Positions 25,107 to 38,162 of a stretch of DNA of 38,162 bases are shown piece by piece; position 1 is the stretch's first letter; every line of letters starts with the position of its first letter. Origin of the DNA: Bacteroidia bacterium (GTDB taxonomy: Bacteria; Bacteroidota; Bacteroidia; NS11-12g; UBA9320); assembly GCA_016779945.1 (NCBI GenBank), contig JADHMR010000009.1:1-38162 (forward strand), in the 5' to 3' direction. Both the position numbers and the translations under genes were made by a program. The notes below the pieces were generated by a model. It was not told the DNA's origin and ran no database searches. It saw only the letters and a program-made list of their open reading frames with translations.

Positions 25107-26114
25107 TTATATCTTCGCTGATTTTACGGTTTTGATAATACGTGCAGCAATCTTGTACGGATCTCCGTTAGAAGCAGGACGACGGTCTTCTAACCAACCT
25201 TTCCAGCCTTTTTCTACGGTCATAATCGGTATGCGAATTGAAGCGCCACGGTCAGAAACACCATAGCTAAATTCATTTATAGACTGTGTTTCGTGTTCAC
25301 CTGTAAGGCGCTGATCGTTGTATGCTCCATATACCTCAATGTGTTCTTTAACCACAGGACGGAAAGCTTCACAGATCTTCTCATATGTTTCTTTAGAACC
25401 GCAAGTTCTAAGAGTAGTGTTAGAAAAGTTAGCATGCATTCCTGACCCATTCCAGTCAGTAGCACCAAGAGGCTTCGGGTGATAATCAATAGCAAGACCA
25501 TAGTCTTCAGCCAAACGCTCTAAAAGATAACGCGCAATCCAAATTTGGTCTCCTGCCTCGGCAGCACCTTTAGCAAATATTTGAAATTCCCACTGTCCTG
25601 GAGCAACCTCGCCGTTAGTTCCTTCAACATTTAAACCAGCCTCTAAACAAATGTCTAGGTGGCGGTCCATAATTTCACGACCAAAAGAGTTTTTGGCGCC
25701 AACTGAACAGTAAAATTGCCCTTGTGGCGTTTGATCTTTTGGAAAGCCTAAGGGTAGATTTGTCTCGGGATCCCAAAGGAAATATTCCTGTTCAAATCCA
25801 AACCAAAAATCATCATCATCATCATCAATGGTAGCACGGCCATTTGATGGGTGTGCAGTACCGTCAGCATTTAAAACCTCTGTCATTACCAAGTATGCGT
25901 TGCTACGAACTGGGTCTGGGTAAATAGCAACAGGTTTTAACAAGCAGTCAGATGATCCTCCTTCGGCTTGTCTTGTCGAGCTACCATCAAAAGACCACAT
26001 GTCAACATCCTCAATTTTTCCTGAAAAGTCGCTCACTACTTTTGTTTTACTACGTAGATTGGCAGTCGGTAGATATCCGTCTAACCAAATGTATTCAAGT
26101 TTTGATTTATTCAT
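25107..26114 (-). CDS. Glutamine synthetase, type II (GSII, beta-grasp)
   Basis: 335 aa; EYIWLDGY, WSFDGSSTRQAEGGSSD, WFGFEQEYF, GTNGEVAPGQWEFQIF, GSGMHANFS, DRGASIRIP. Confidence 0.93.
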   Translation of the reverse strand: MNKSKLEYIWLDGYLPTANLRSKTKVVSDFSGKIEDVDMWSFDGSSTRQAEGGSSDCLLKPVAIYPDPVRSNAYLVMTEVLNADGTAHPSNGRATIDDDDDDFWFGFEQEYFLWDPETNLPLGFPKDQTPQGQFYCSVGAKNSFGREIMDRHLDICLEAGLNVEGTNGEVAPGQWEFQIFAKGAAEAGDQIWIARYLLERLAEDYGLAIDYHPKPLGATDWNGSGMHANFSNTTLRTCGSKETYEKICEAFRPVVKEHIEVYGAYNDQRLTGEHETQSINEFSYGVSDRGASIRIPIMTVEKGWKGWLEDRRPASNGDPYKIAARIIKTVKSAKI

Positions 26115-26135
26115 AATTTTTTAATAAGAGATACA

Positions 26136-26143
26136 CAAAAATA
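26136..26143 (-). promoter_or_regulatory. -7 element for GSII
   Basis: Minus-strand TATTTTTG (TAnnTTTG), 22 bp from the GSII start. Confidence 0.45.
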
Positions 26144-26152
26144 TAATTTTAA

Positions 26153-26176
26153 TGCACCCGTTGAACTTTGAGGGTA
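26153..26176. promoter_or_regulatory. Palindromic site A (ACCC-N12-GGGT)
   Basis: TGCACCCGTTGAACTTTGAGGGTA; 24-nt match frame with site B. Confidence 0.6.
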
Positions 26177-26205
26177 TTTTTTTATTAACGTATATATTAT
26201 TTTTA

Positions 26206-26229
26206 TACACCCCCTAATTTTGTGGGGTA
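26206..26229. promoter_or_regulatory. Palindromic site B (ACCC-N12-GGGT)
   Basis: TACACCCCCTAATTTTGTGGGGTA; same spacing as site A, start-to-start 53 bp. Confidence 0.6.
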
Positions 26230-26313
26230 TTTATTGTGAAAAAAATAAAAAATGAACGAATAACACGTAAAATCAAAATATTCTCTTTTTAATATTAGTC
26301 TATAGATTTAGTG

Positions 26314-26321
26314 TATATTTG
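26314..26321 (+). promoter_or_regulatory. -7 element (TATATTTG) for GSIII
   Basis: TAnnTTTG, 25 bp upstream of ATG 26347. Confidence 0.5.
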
Positions 26322-26346
26322 TTAACCACCTTAACACCTTAATATC

Positions 26347-28533
26347 ATGAACAAACTTCGCTTTCAAGCTATTCGGGATGCGGTGAATCGCCAACCGAAT
26401 ACATTCTACTCTGACCAAAAAAAATCAACCCTCTTTGCAAGTCATGTTTTTACTAAGAAGGCGATGCGTACTTTTCTTACAAAACAGGCTTACAGCGAAG
26501 TTGTAGAAGCCATTGAGAAGGGTTCTAAAATTAATCGTTCTGTAGCTGACCACGTTGCAGCTTCAATGAAAGATTGGGCAACTTCTATGGGTGCTACTCA
26601 TTATACGCATTGGTTTCAGCCATTAACTGGTGCTACCGCTGAAAAGCATGACGCCTTTTTTGATATAGATAGTAATGGTGATAGTTTAGAGTATTTTGAT
26701 GGTTCTCAACTAGTGCAACAAGAGCCAGACGCTTCAAGTTTTCCTAGTGGAGGGATTCGTAATACTTTTGAAGCAAGAGGCTATACCGCTTGGGATCCTT
26801 CTTCACCAGCTTTTATTTATGGGAGTACGCTTTGTATTCCTACAATTTTTGTTTCGTACACCGGTCAAGCTTTAGACAACAAAACCCCTTTGCTTAGAGC
26901 ATTGAGTGCTGTTGACCAAGCTGCAACTCAAGTGGCTAAGTTTTTTGATAAAAATGTAACTCATGTTCAAGCAACATTGGGTTGGGAGCAAGAGTATTTC
27001 TTGGTCGATAAAGCATTGGCTTCATCACGCCCTGATATTATGCTAACGGGTCGTACCCTTGTAGGACATAAGCCGCCAAAAGGACAGCAACTTGACGATC
27101 ACTATTTTGGTTCTATTCCTTCACGTGCAATCAATTTTATGCGCGAGTTAGAGTATGAGTCCATGAGGTTAGGCATTCCGGTTAAAACACGTCACAACGA
27201 AGTGGCACCCAACCAATTTGAATTGGCCCCTATTTTTGAAGAGGCAAATCTTGCCGTTGACCATAATGCCTTGCTTATGGATATCATGGGGAAGATTGCT
27301 AGTAAACATCATTTTAAAATTTTGTTACACGAAAAGCCCTTTTCTGGTATAAATGGTTCTGGGAAACACAATAACTGGTCGTTGCAAACTAATACAGGTG
27401 TAAATCTATTAAGCCCTGGAAAAACACCAATGAGTAATTTGCAATTTTTAACCTTTTTTATAACAACCATTAAAGCGGTTCAGAATTTTGAATCTTTGGT
27501 GCGCTCATCTGTTGCAAGTGCTGGGAATGATCATCGTTTGGGAGCTAATGAAGCACCACCAGCAATTATTTCGGTATTTATTGGTACTCAGCTTTCAAAA
27601 GTATTAGAGGACTTGAAACATGTTTCTAAAGGCAAACTTTCTCCACAAGAGAAAACGGATTTAAAGCTCAATGTTGTTGGTAAAATCCCTGATGTTCTAT
27701 TGGACAATACAGATAGAAACCGCACTTCGCCATTTGCCTTTACGGGAAATAAATTTGAATTTCGAGCAGTAGGGTCAAATCAAAACTGTGCTATTCCAAT
27801 GACGGTCCTTAATACCATAGTTGCCAAGCAGTTAAAAGACTTTAAGAATGAAGTTGATAAGCTCATCAAAACAAAAAAATTGAAAAAAGATGATGCAATT
27901 TTTAACGTGCTTCGTGAGTATGTCAAAACAACAAAAAATATTCTTTTCGATGGCGACGGTTACAGCGAGTCATGGCAAAAAGAAGCCTCACGACGCGGAT
28001 TATCTAACCTAAAAACTGCTCCAGAAGCACTTTCGGTTTGGGTTAAAGACACTGTTATTGAGTTATTTGATAGTATGGGGGTAATGAATCCCATTGAACA
28101 AAAAGCCCGTTATGAAATCCAGCTTGAGCAATACATCCAGTGTGTGGAAATAGAAAGTCTCGTGCTTGAAAATATTGTAAACAACCAAATTCTTCCTACT
28201 GCATTTAGGTATCAACATATGTTGATTGAAAATGTCAACGGATTAAAACAAATTTATGGCGATGATTTTTCAAAGCATGCTCCCGTTGCTATGGAAACTA
28301 TTGAAAAAATCAGTGCACTAAGCGGCTCTTTGACATCGTTTTGTTCGGCGCTTTCAAAAGCTAGGACAAAAGCAAATAGCATGAGCATTATAGAGGATAG
28401 CGCACAGATGTACGCTAAAAATGTTTTGCCATTATTTTTAAACATTCGTGAAGCTGCAGATGGACTGGAACTTATCGTTGATGATGCAACCTGGCCGCTG
28501 GCAAAATATCGCGAACTTTTATTCTTACGTTAA
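26347..28533 (+). CDS. glnN: Glutamine synthetase, type III
   Basis: 728 aa; GWEQEYFLVDK, RHNEVAPNQFELAPIFEEAN, NGSGKHNNWSL, SVASAGNDHRLGANEAPPAI, NRTSPFAFTGNKFEFRAVGSNQN. Confidence 0.95.
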   Translation: MNKLRFQAIRDAVNRQPNTFYSDQKKSTLFASHVFTKKAMRTFLTKQAYSEVVEAIEKGSKINRSVADHVAASMKDWATSMGATHYTHWFQPLTGATAEKHDAFFDIDSNGDSLEYFDGSQLVQQEPDASSFPSGGIRNTFEARGYTAWDPSSPAFIYGSTLCIPTIFVSYTGQALDNKTPLLRALSAVDQAATQVAKFFDKNVTHVQATLGWEQEYFLVDKALASSRPDIMLTGRTLVGHKPPKGQQLDDHYFGSIPSRAINFMRELEYESMRLGIPVKTRHNEVAPNQFELAPIFEEANLAVDHNALLMDIMGKIASKHHFKILLHEKPFSGINGSGKHNNWSLQTNTGVNLLSPGKTPMSNLQFLTFFITTIKAVQNFESLVRSSVASAGNDHRLGANEAPPAIISVFIGTQLSKVLEDLKHVSKGKLSPQEKTDLKLNVVGKIPDVLLDNTDRNRTSPFAFTGNKFEFRAVGSNQNCAIPMTVLNTIVAKQLKDFKNEVDKLIKTKKLKKDDAIFNVLREYVKTTKNILFDGDGYSESWQKEASRRGLSNLKTAPEALSVWVKDTVIELFDSMGVMNPIEQKARYEIQLEQYIQCVEIESLVLENIVNNQILPTAFRYQHMLIENVNGLKQIYGDDFSKHAPVAMETIEKISALSGSLTSFCSALSKARTKANSMSIIEDSAQMYAKNVLPLFLNIREAADGLELIVDDATWPLAKYRELLFLR

Positions 28534-34485: not shown

Positions 34486-35724
34486 TTACTTTTCAAACAC
34501 ACTAAAGTCAGCATAAGCAGTCATTCCATGCTCTGCATCATCTAATCCATTAATTTCTTCTTCTTTGCTAACACGAAGACCAATAGTGGTCTTTACGATG
34601 AATACTATAATTAGGGTGCATATAACGCAGAAGGCTCCTACGATACCAACACCTGCAAGCTGAATCATAAATTGATCAAACCCTGCCATTTCACCAAATA
34701 GACCTACGGCAAGTGTTCCCCACATACCAGCAAATAGGTGAACTGCAATAGCTCCAACAGGGTCATCCAATTTCAATTTTTCTAATAATGATATAGCAAG
34801 TACAACAATAATACCTCCGATACCTCCAATAATCATGGCATCACCGGTAGACATTTGATCGGCACCCGCTGTGATGGCAACTAGCCCTCCAAGAACACCG
34901 TTCATAAACATGGTTATGTCATAGTTTTTATAAAGAATGTGAGAAAAAACACTAGCGATAACACCTCCTGCAGCAGCAGCCAAACTTGTAGTAACAAGCA
35001 CTAAAGATGTGGTTTCTGGGTCTGCAGAAAGAACAGATCCGCCATTAAACCCAAACCAGCCTAACCATAAAATTAGAACACCGCCTGCAGCAATTGGGAC
35101 GTTATGTCCAAAAATAGGGTTTGAAGTTCCGTCTGAATTAAACTTACCAATTCGAGCTCCTAAAAAGTAAATTACAATTAAAGCAGCCCAGCCACCAACA
35201 GAGTGTACAAGTGTTGATCCTGCAAAGTCATAGAAGCCCCAGTTACTCAAAAAGCCACCACCCCATTGCCAAGATCCTACAATTGGGTAAACAATGCCAA
35301 CGTACAATACTGCAATAAGCATAAAACTCTCAAGTTTAATACGCTCAGCCACAGCTCCTGAAATAATAGTAGCAGCAGTTGCAGCAAACATTCCCTGAAA
35401 TAAAAAGTCAGTCCACCATGTGTAACCACCATCTGCGTAAGCTGCAGTCATGCCTCCTTCGGGAGGTGCAATACCCCATCCAGCAAATTTGAAAAAGCCA
35501 ATAGCTCCTTCTTCAAATCCGGGATACATTAAGTTGAATCCAGCCAGAGCATATAATAACAGTCCAGCGGTTATGACAAAAAAGTTTTTAAATAATATGT
35601 TAACTGTGTTTTTTTGTCTTGTTAGTCCTGCCTCAAGGAATGAGAATCCCATGTGCATAAAAAATACGAGTGCTGTACAGATCATCATCCATACGTTATT
35701 TGCGGTAAATAATGCGCTATCCAT
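34486..35724 (-). CDS. amt: Ammonium transporter (copy 1)
   Basis: 412 aa; FLEAGLTRQKNTVNILFKNF, FDFAGSTLVHSVGGWAAL-like motif, AIAVHLFAGMWGTLAVG. Confidence 0.95.
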   Translation of the reverse strand: MDSALFTANNVWMMICTALVFFMHMGFSFLEAGLTRQKNTVNILFKNFFVITAGLLLYALAGFNLMYPGFEEGAIGFFKFAGWGIAPPEGGMTAAYADGGYTWWTDFLFQGMFAATAATIISGAVAERIKLESFMLIAVLYVGIVYPIVGSWQWGGGFLSNWGFYDFAGSTLVHSVGGWAALIVIYFLGARIGKFNSDGTSNPIFGHNVPIAAGGVLILWLGWFGFNGGSVLSADPETTSLVLVTTSLAAAAGGVIASVFSHILYKNYDITMFMNGVLGGLVAITAGADQMSTGDAMIIGGIGGIIVVLAISLLEKLKLDDPVGAIAVHLFAGMWGTLAVGLFGEMAGFDQFMIQLAGVGIVGAFCVICTLIIVFIVKTTIGLRVSKEEEINGLDDAEHGMTAYADFSVFEK

Positions 35725-35730
35725 TTTTGT

Positions 35731-36069
35731 TTAGTTTAAAGTTTCTCCTCCTTTTTCTCCGGTACGAATTCTGTAAGCCTCCTCAACAGGAAGTACAAAA
35801 ATTTTCCCATCTCCTACATTGCCCGTTCCTCCGGCTTCAATAATGGCTTGTATGGCAGGCTCTACAAAGTCATCGTTTACAACTATGGATAACATTCTGC
35901 GTTCTATGGCAGAAGTGTTGTAGGAAACGCCTCGATATACCCTACCTTTTTTTTCGTTTCCAATTCCTGTTACATCCCAATAGCTAAAGAATGTAACTCC
36001 TACATCATGTAGCTTTGATTTCACGCTTTCGTATTGCGCTTTTCGAATTAGTGCTTCTATTTTTTTCAT
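35731..36069 (-). CDS. glnB: Nitrogen regulatory protein P-II
   Basis: MKKIEALIRKAQYESVKSKLHDVG...GRVYRGVSY...GNVGDGKIFVLPVEEAYRIRTGEKG. Confidence 0.95.
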   Translation of the reverse strand: MKKIEALIRKAQYESVKSKLHDVGVTFFSYWDVTGIGNEKKGRVYRGVSYNTSAIERRMLSIVVNDDFVEPAIQAIIEAGGTGNVGDGKIFVLPVEEAYRIRTGEKGGETLN

Positions 36070-36100
36070 TTTATTTGTTATTAGAGAGAGTGATATAAAT

Positions 36101-36127
36101 GGGGATAGGCATTTAATGCCTATCCCC
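36101..36127. repeat. Perfect 11-bp-stem hairpin between amt and glnB
   Basis: GGGGATAGGCA-TTTAA-TGCCTATCCCC; not followed by a T-run on either strand. Confidence 0.85.
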
Positions 36128-36170
36128 AAATAATCTATTTATAATTGTTAATTATCATTAGGTTAAATTC

Positions 36171-37445
36171 TTATGGTAATAAATCACTATTAAATGCTTC
36201 TTCACCATGCTCAGTGATATCAAGACCTTTTCTTTCATCTTCTTCAGAAACACGAAGCCCGATAGTTTTCTTTAATGTGCCTAGCACAATTATTGAAGTG
36301 ATAACAGCCCATGCAGCATATGCAGCTACACCAATAGCTTGAACCCCAAGTTGTGAAGTACCACCTCCGTTAAATAGTCCAATTCCAGTGTTTCCATCAA
36401 CACCCCAAAGACCAATGACGAGCGTACCCCAAGCACCAACAACACCGTGCGCAGAAGCAGCACCAATGGCATCGTCAATTTTTAGCTTCTTCTCGATAAA
36501 TTCGATTGAGAATACAACAATAACACCACCTAGTAAGCCTGCAAAGAAACCGCCTTCAAAAGTCATGTTTCCACAACCTGCGGTGATAGCTACCAATCCG
36601 GCTACGGCTCCGTTAAGAGTTTGTGATAAACTAGGTTTTCCTAGGTAAACCCACGATGTGAAAAGAGCTCCTAATGCGCCAGCAGCAGCAGCAATATTGG
36701 TTACCATTACAACCGATGCAGCAGCAATAGAGTCTGCACCTCCCCAAGCAAGTTGAGAGCCACCGTTGAAACCAAACCATCCAAACCAAAGAATAAATAC
36801 ACCAAGTGTACCCAATAATAAGTTACTTCCTGGGATAGGATTGACTTTTCCATCAGTATATTTTCCAATACGAGGGCCAACCATCCAAGCAGCAACAAGT
36901 GCAGCCCATCCACCAACTGAGTGAACAATAGAAGAACCAGCAAAGTCAATGAAACCAAGGTCTGCTAACCAAGCACCGTCTCCGTACCATTGCCATCCAC
37001 CAGAAATTGGGTAAATAATAGCAGTAAGAAATAATGTAAAAATTATATAGGTGCTGTATTTAGTTCTTCCTGCAATAGCACCAGAAACAATTGTAGCAGC
37101 GGTAGCCGCAAAAACCGTTTGGAAGAAAACATCATGTGCTCCTACGCCTGGGTTAAACCAAAGATCACTGATAGAAATAAACCCGCTTGCATCTTTTGCC
37201 CCGTACATTAAACCGTAGCCTAATGCCCAAAAACTTAGTGTTCCTACGCTTATATCCATAAAGTTTTTCATGGCAATGTTTGCAGCGTTTTTGGCGCGAG
37301 TCATTCCAGATTCTAATAAGGTAAATCCTGCTTGCATTAAGAAAACAAGAATACCCGAAAGTAAAATCCACAAGATTGTAAAATCTTCATTAGCGTCAAC
37401 TGTTGTTGTGCTAATAATGTTAGGTAATGTTGTAAGTAATGACAT
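36171..37445 (-). CDS. amt: Ammonium transporter (copy 2)
   Basis: 424 aa; GFTLLESGMTRAKNAANIAMKNFMD, DFAGSSIVHSVGGWAAL, GAASAHGVVGAWGTL. Confidence 0.95.
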   Translation of the reverse strand: MSLLTTLPNIISTTTVDANEDFTILWILLSGILVFLMQAGFTLLESGMTRAKNAANIAMKNFMDISVGTLSFWALGYGLMYGAKDASGFISISDLWFNPGVGAHDVFFQTVFAATAATIVSGAIAGRTKYSTYIIFTLFLTAIIYPISGGWQWYGDGAWLADLGFIDFAGSSIVHSVGGWAALVAAWMVGPRIGKYTDGKVNPIPGSNLLLGTLGVFILWFGWFGFNGGSQLAWGGADSIAAASVVMVTNIAAAAGALGALFTSWVYLGKPSLSQTLNGAVAGLVAITAGCGNMTFEGGFFAGLLGGVIVVFSIEFIEKKLKIDDAIGAASAHGVVGAWGTLVIGLWGVDGNTGIGLFNGGGTSQLGVQAIGVAAYAAWAVITSIIVLGTLKKTIGLRVSEEDERKGLDITEHGEEAFNSDLLP

Positions 37446-37465
37446 AACTTATTTATTTAATTAAA

Positions 37466-38162
37466 CTAGAATGTGTAAATAGCAGCTACAATAAATGCAG
37501 TTAAACTATCAGTAGCACCATCTGCGTCAGCATAGTACTTACCAGACGCGCTGTCTATTCTGATTTCAGGTTTGAAAATCATATTTCCTGAAGTGTAACT
37601 TCCTGTCAATGTAAATGAAGTGTTGTCTCCTTTTTCAGCTATTGAGCCTATAGCTCCAAGACCATCGTCAGTAAATGCTTCAAATCTTCCTCCAAGTGCA
37701 AAAGCATCAGATAGTGTTAATTGTGGATATAGCGCAACCCCACTAAATTTAGCGCTGTCATCTTCGTATGAAGTAGCGTTAATACCCAAGAAAAAGCTTT
37801 CAGAAAGGTTGAAACCTCCAGTAAAGTCATACTGAGTAACACCATTCCCAGTAATAAAATTGATGTATTGTCCGTAAAGACCCAATTGTGCACCGAACAT
37901 ATAATCATCAGCAACAGGCTGAGATTCTGTGTAGTCTGTAGAATTTAATAGTCCTAGCATCAATGAAGCATCATCAGAAAGAGCGATGTCTGCCTTAATC
38001 CCTGTATGAGAGAAAGGTCCGTAAGAGAACATATATGAAGTAGAGTAGTTAAAATTCCCTACCGGCGAGATAACTTCGTAACCCAAAAAGGTGTTAAAGT
38101 TACCAAGAGTAAGGGTAAAGCTATCGCTTACGTTATAGTAAACGTACAATTGGTTAACGATA
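37466..38162 (-). CDS. Outer-membrane porin-like beta-barrel protein (5' end outside window)
   Basis: C-terminal part of a barrel, ...AFIVAAIYTF; frame stays open past 38149 (the track's initial M is a TTG), so the gene is truncated by the window. Confidence 0.8.
   Translation of the reverse strand, partial: IVNQLYVYYNVSDSFTLTLGNFNTFLGYEVISPVGNFNYSTSYMFSYGPFSHTGIKADIALSDDASLMLGLLNSTDYTESQPVADDYMFGAQLGLYGQYINFITGNGVTQYDFTGGFNLSESFFLGINATSYEDDSAKFSGVALYPQLTLSDAFALGGRFEAFTDDGLGAIGSIAEKGDNTSFTLTGSYTSGNMIFKPEIRIDSASGKYYADADGATDSLTAFIVAAIYTF

Follow-up and report, generated by a model that had tools for sequence, protein, structure and literature searches.

Paired ACCCC/GGGGT palindromes between divergent glutamine synthetase genes are likely operators of an ammonium-assimilation regulon in Bacteroidota

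Two palindromes, sites A and B, lie between divergent genes for type II and type III glutamine synthetase (GSII and GSIII) in the window, the whole 38,162-nucleotide stretch of DNA analysed here. We consider it likely that a single dimeric DNA-binding protein uses both as its operators and controls a conserved regulon of ammonium assimilation, a model that has no binding, expression or mutant data behind it. The first-pass annotation had described two 24-nt palindromes with starts 53 bp apart and suggested that they act as a pair of operators for a Bacteroidota nitrogen regulator not yet described. Both palindromes were found where it had placed them, and the suggestion is supported by footprinting and by the genes that carry the motif, with the identity of the binding protein and the choice between activation and repression unsettled. 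The features of the region are as follows.

25107 to 26114, minus strand: GSII gene, glutamine synthetase type II, 335 aa, a target (NCBIfam GlnII match of 377 bits, under the curated cut-off of 500).
26136 to 26143, minus strand: GSII −7 box, TATTTTTG, starting 32 nt after the start of site A in the minus-strand reading.
26153 to 26176, no strand assigned: site A, GSII-proximal, TGCACCCGTTGAACTTTGAGGGTA, conserved core 26156 to 26175, with aligned counterparts in GSII relatives (L002–L004 and others).
26206 to 26229, no strand assigned: site B, GSII-distal, TACACCCCCTAATTTTGTGGGGTA, conserved core 26209 to 26228, centre 53 bp from that of site A.
26314 to 26321, plus strand: GSIII −7 box, TATATTTG, 105 nt after the start of site B.
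26347 to 28533, plus strand: GSIII gene, glutamine synthetase type III, 728 aa, a target (weak GlnA family match; a full-length homolog in 56 of the 58 genomes searched; typed as III by length and homology).

The GSII −7 box and the end of site A are 12 bp apart, which puts site A at the −33 position, as had been proposed. Site B is indeed upstream of the GSIII promoter, but at 105 bp before the −7 box it does not adjoin that promoter in this genome. The outer TRCA that had been included in the motif is not conserved in relatives; alignment of their upstream regions gave a core of ACCCC and GGGGT separated by 9–11 mostly A/T-rich nucleotides, for a site length of 19–21 bp.

The pattern ACCC-N12-GGGT occurs three times in the window where 0.24 occurrences are expected, and none of 100 shuffles reached three. 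The third match, at 1173–1192 (AACCCTCGAATTTTCGAGGGTT), is a perfect hairpin between converging genes (z −5.3); it is a bidirectional terminator and not an operator. Over the whole of the window's own assembly the bare 8-base ACCC/GGGT pattern was not enriched (12 places versus 20 for the reversed control), which leaves conservation, context, and the arrangement and spacing of the sites as the evidence.

GSII was found on only two contigs of the nominal assembly and was absent from the other 107 genomes of its order (E ≤ 1e-80), the assembly holds a second GSIII on contig C90 that is 57% identical, and the window contig matches Flavobacteriaceae loci at 93–100% GSII identity. From these three observations we infer that the contig (1–38162) is probably a piece of a Flavobacteriaceae genome misbinned into the MAG of another order. 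The second GSII of the nominal assembly, on contig C136, has no operator.

Phylogenetic footprinting, the check put forward in the first-pass annotation, was carried out on GSII homologs collected by protein similarity (loci L001–L080) and revealed conservation across Flavobacteriaceae. Many GSII upstream regions of this family have a distal palindrome at about −110 to −140 and a second one about 53 bp nearer the gene, the latter often half-degenerate. The pair also precedes GSIII in four further families of the class (f20, f23, f37 and f42). The motif was absent from Cytophagales, Chitinophagia and the order-mates of the nominal assembly, as well as from the reduced-genome marine Flavobacteriaceae L005, L006, L009 and L010, and a majority of GSII regions in our pooled upstream set have no strong site. 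The motif at GSII is common but far from universal. One GSII upstream region (L016) has arms resembling TACATCC...GGATGTA at the operator position in place of ACCCC/GGGGT, possibly a shift of the operator sequence.

Genome searches identified the genes that carry the operator. A tandem pattern gave 178 matches in 201 Flavobacteriaceae genomes versus 41 for the reversed control, and 22 of the 30 tandem loci that were fetched sit before GSII/GSIII, gltB and/or a BBP2-type porin, P-II, or ald. A search for single strong sites, which covered 71 genomes, placed 21 of the first 30 loci before the genes of the regulon, now including amt. Matches inside coding sequence and ACCCCGA...TCGGGGT hairpins were excluded as chance occurrences or terminators. 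In the pooled upstream set, strong sites were found upstream of GSIII (52/60), gltB (26/26), the porin (20/23), ald (9/9), amt (13/18), P-II (20/34) and GSII (41/92). These fractions are not unbiased prevalences, since the set takes in many loci that were found by the motif; the GSII figure comes closest to one. For each well-sampled gene, sites were present in 45–100% of upstream regions across Flavobacteriaceae, with a shuffled expectation below 0.01 (<1%). A scan near gltB, amt and glnB (P-II), also proposed in the first-pass annotation, was positive, and one operator is common to the upstream regions of GS, GOGAT and Amt/P-II genes, as would be required of a nitrogen-assimilation regulon. 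No transcription-factor gene that might point to autoregulation was recognised beside the annotated sites. On this comparative evidence, the A/B pair is a real part of what appears to be a conserved switch marking the ammonium-assimilation genes of marine and other Bacteroidota.

A second target operon is present at the end of the window.

34486 to 38149, minus strand: amt, P-II, amt and BBP2 porin, the porin gene cut by the end of the window.

For this operon the operator array falls outside the window; it was read instead in G108, a near-identical strain, where it was looked up only after the model had been formed. It contains a full palindrome (L406:1251–1271) and a second site 52 bp further, with 16 bp from the GGGT half-site to TACTTTTG. 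The porin operon is apparently co-regulated with GS and GOGAT. The operon, with its two ammonium transporters and P-II, is headed by the BBP2-type porin.

The distance between sites was 51–54 bp, with a peak at 52.5–53 bp and further peaks at 105.5–107 (about 106) and 157–159 (about 158) bp, which are multiples of five helical turns. Because the tandem search pattern itself restricted the first distance, the spacing test was redone on loci fetched without a pairing criterion. There, too, extra half-sites clustered at ±52 bp, with little elsewhere. As 52.5 bp corresponds to five helical turns, bound dimers would face the same side of the DNA. In four gltB/porin loci (L156, L158, L162 and L165) the middle of the 53-bp spacer holds a conserved element rich in T and A, either (A)TTTTTATCA or its complement, which is perhaps a bend or the site of a third protein.

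The first-pass annotation had named as a refuting outcome that the palindromes act only as RNA hairpins, in the manner of terminators or attenuators. A single weak terminator-like call at 26212–26227 is all that speaks for such a role, and we regard it as very improbable. The sites lie upstream of the −7 boxes of GSII, porin and P-II, their stems are no more stable than those of shuffled sequences (z about −0.5, quite different from the genuine hairpin at 1173), and a five-turn spacing would be meaningless for RNA. The arms do not vary, and the inner positions pair no more than their base composition would give. With no stable hairpin with a covarying stem inside a transcript, this reading was rejected on folding, covariation and position relative to the −7 box. 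An Rfam search returned tRNAs only.

The position of the sites relative to the −7 box (TAnnTTTG) was used to infer the direction of the effect. The −7 box starts 36 nt after the proximal site in all 10 porin promoters, 35–37 nt after it in 8 of 9 P-II promoters, and 32–37 nt after it in 27 of the 44 GSII relatives scored (32 in the window). A TTG near −33 was seen in only 10 of 51 cases; windows of equal size from these sequences gave a background of 0.11. At GSII, porin and P-II, then, the proximal site mostly stands in place of a −33 element that is itself usually absent. An activator would be expected to bind with this geometry, and near-constant placement at three genes combined with the scarcity of −33 elements suggests promoters that need help rather than blocking; activation is inferred on these grounds. 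At gltB and GSIII the spacing from site to −7 box varies among relatives. In several GSIII promoters of other families (L383, L389 and L390) the proximal half-site starts 15–18 nt before the −7 box, inside the would-be −33/−7 spacer, and the ald site in G491 appears to overlap a possible −7 box; both arrangements are easier to read as repression. With the variable spacing at GSIII and gltB and this GSIII half-site, repression or mixed action remains possible. Without expression or mutant data we lean modestly towards activation and keep repression or mixed action as a lesser but serious possibility. In its full form the repressor alternative keeps the same regulon and operators and supposes that, in nitrogen excess, a cooperating pair of dimers blocks the promoter or loops it out, like GlnR at paired Bacillus sites. 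Paired, phased sites fit cooperative repression or looping, and site A covers the GSII −33 region as a repressor might; given how constant the placement is at promoters that seem to need help, we think this version rather unlikely.

In the activation model that we prefer, one dimeric protein would control GSII, GSIII, GOGAT, Amt/P-II, the porin and alanine dehydrogenase. Its dimers would sit five helical turns apart on the same DNA face, across the A/T-rich spacer, and their binding would probably be cooperative. At the promoters of GSII, the porin and P-II, whose site placement was observed directly, the proximal dimer would fill the place of the missing −33 element and recruit the housekeeping RNA polymerase at high nitrogen demand. 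Cooperativity, recruitment and the signal, like the protein itself, are inferences.

Low ammonium strongly induces amtB, glnK, glnN and gltBD in Prevotella ruminicola (PMC5552732). Formosa sp. Hel1_33_131 has an equivalent cluster, whose porin, ammonium transporters, P-II and GOGAT are co-induced only with glucose or laminarin and not with peptone alone (PMC6246565). The latter is as expected of a nitrogen-demand regulon, although the support is only indirect; Formosa upstream DNA was outside our analysis. In these papers nitrogen genes of Bacteroidota are shown to be co-regulated, with no regulator named (PMC5552732, PMC6246565). Both in the sea and in the gut, Bacteroidota degrade polysaccharides on a major scale. 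An operator with strict spacing makes the regulator of nitrogen assimilation in this phylum directly testable and offers a testable mechanism for the carbon–nitrogen coupling reported in bloom Formosa.

The protein that binds A and B remains unidentified; Lrp and MerR candidates were tested and are not supported. The MerR candidate is a short protein of GlnR size whose gene sits between those for an M23 peptidase and Der. Of 10 motif-bearing genomes, 9 have it intact and one has it frameshifted or split; in several genomes without the motif it is missing or truncated. MerR-family operators are often similar palindromes of 18–22 bp. However, 226 of the class's 247 genomes have the gene, those of an order with motif-free GSIII genes among them. 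Such a near-universal profile does not discriminate, so this candidate is neither supported nor excluded, and we rate it as improbable. The gene is truncated or frame-split in two marine flavobacterial MAGs (G192 C22, L320; G115 C4, L321 and L323).

Regulators of the Lrp/AsnC family bind A/T-centred palindromes, commonly in helically phased arrays, with ald and gltBD as classical targets, and in all these respects resemble the system described here. The gene for one such protein, Lrp1, is often a neighbour of yugP and in G127 lies near ald (a linkage seen in L338), and it is present in 9 of 10 motif-bearing genomes inspected. It is also present in motif-lacking genomes, and no match at E ≤ 1e-35 was found in G445, G416, G438, G535 and G512, which belong to other families and all have the GSIII pair, although a diverged ortholog could fall below the cut. 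Because its profile across genomes does not follow the motif, Lrp1 was set aside as a highly doubtful candidate; other Lrps are not excluded. A third Lrp-type gene, Lrp3, occurs in the GS/P-II neighbourhood of some genomes (L339 9744–10199; L340 9758–10201). As the regulator Lrp3 was rejected, being missing from the window's clade and having a profile that does not match the motif.

A search of the open-access literature, with subscription papers outside its scope, found no described operator of this kind. In Flavobacteriaceae and several more families of Bacteroidia, general nitrogen control could lie with an as yet undescribed protein that assembles along DNA over ACCCC/GGGGT palindromes in steps of five turns and falls outside the GlnR, NtcA, NtrC, AmtR and NrpR types, a proposal that we make tentatively. 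The first-pass annotation had noted that the motif resembles neither GlnR nor NtrC sites. NtrC of Proteobacteria acts at glnA from paired upstream sites with G/C-rich half-sites around an A/T core, much like the present ones, but no sigma-54 −24/−12 promoter (TGGYA-N6/7-TTGC) was found in 264 upstream regions, where TAnnTTTG boxes are present in its place. The NtrC/sigma-54 reading fails, as no such promoter accompanies the sites. NtcA, the CRP-family regulator of cyanobacteria, activates GS and GOGAT from sites immediately before the −10 element where a good −35 is lacking, and shares with our system its targets, the position of its site and the poor −35 promoters. Its sites are GTA-N8-TAC, however, and no CRP-type HTH protein was found in four motif-bearing genomes (G108, G109, G111 and G115, which may be incomplete), making a CRP/FNR regulator unlikely. 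GlnR and TnrA of Bacilli, which are of MerR type, likewise use palindromic operators, paired at some promoters, before glutamine synthetase and amt-glnK. The GlnR sequence TGTNA-N7-TNACA (PMC3412718) is not met by the ACCCC-N9..11-GGGGT core, and the operators described here differ further in their longer site of 19–21 bp, their fixed five-turn spacing, and a regulon that takes in GSII, GSIII, GOGAT, ald and the porin.
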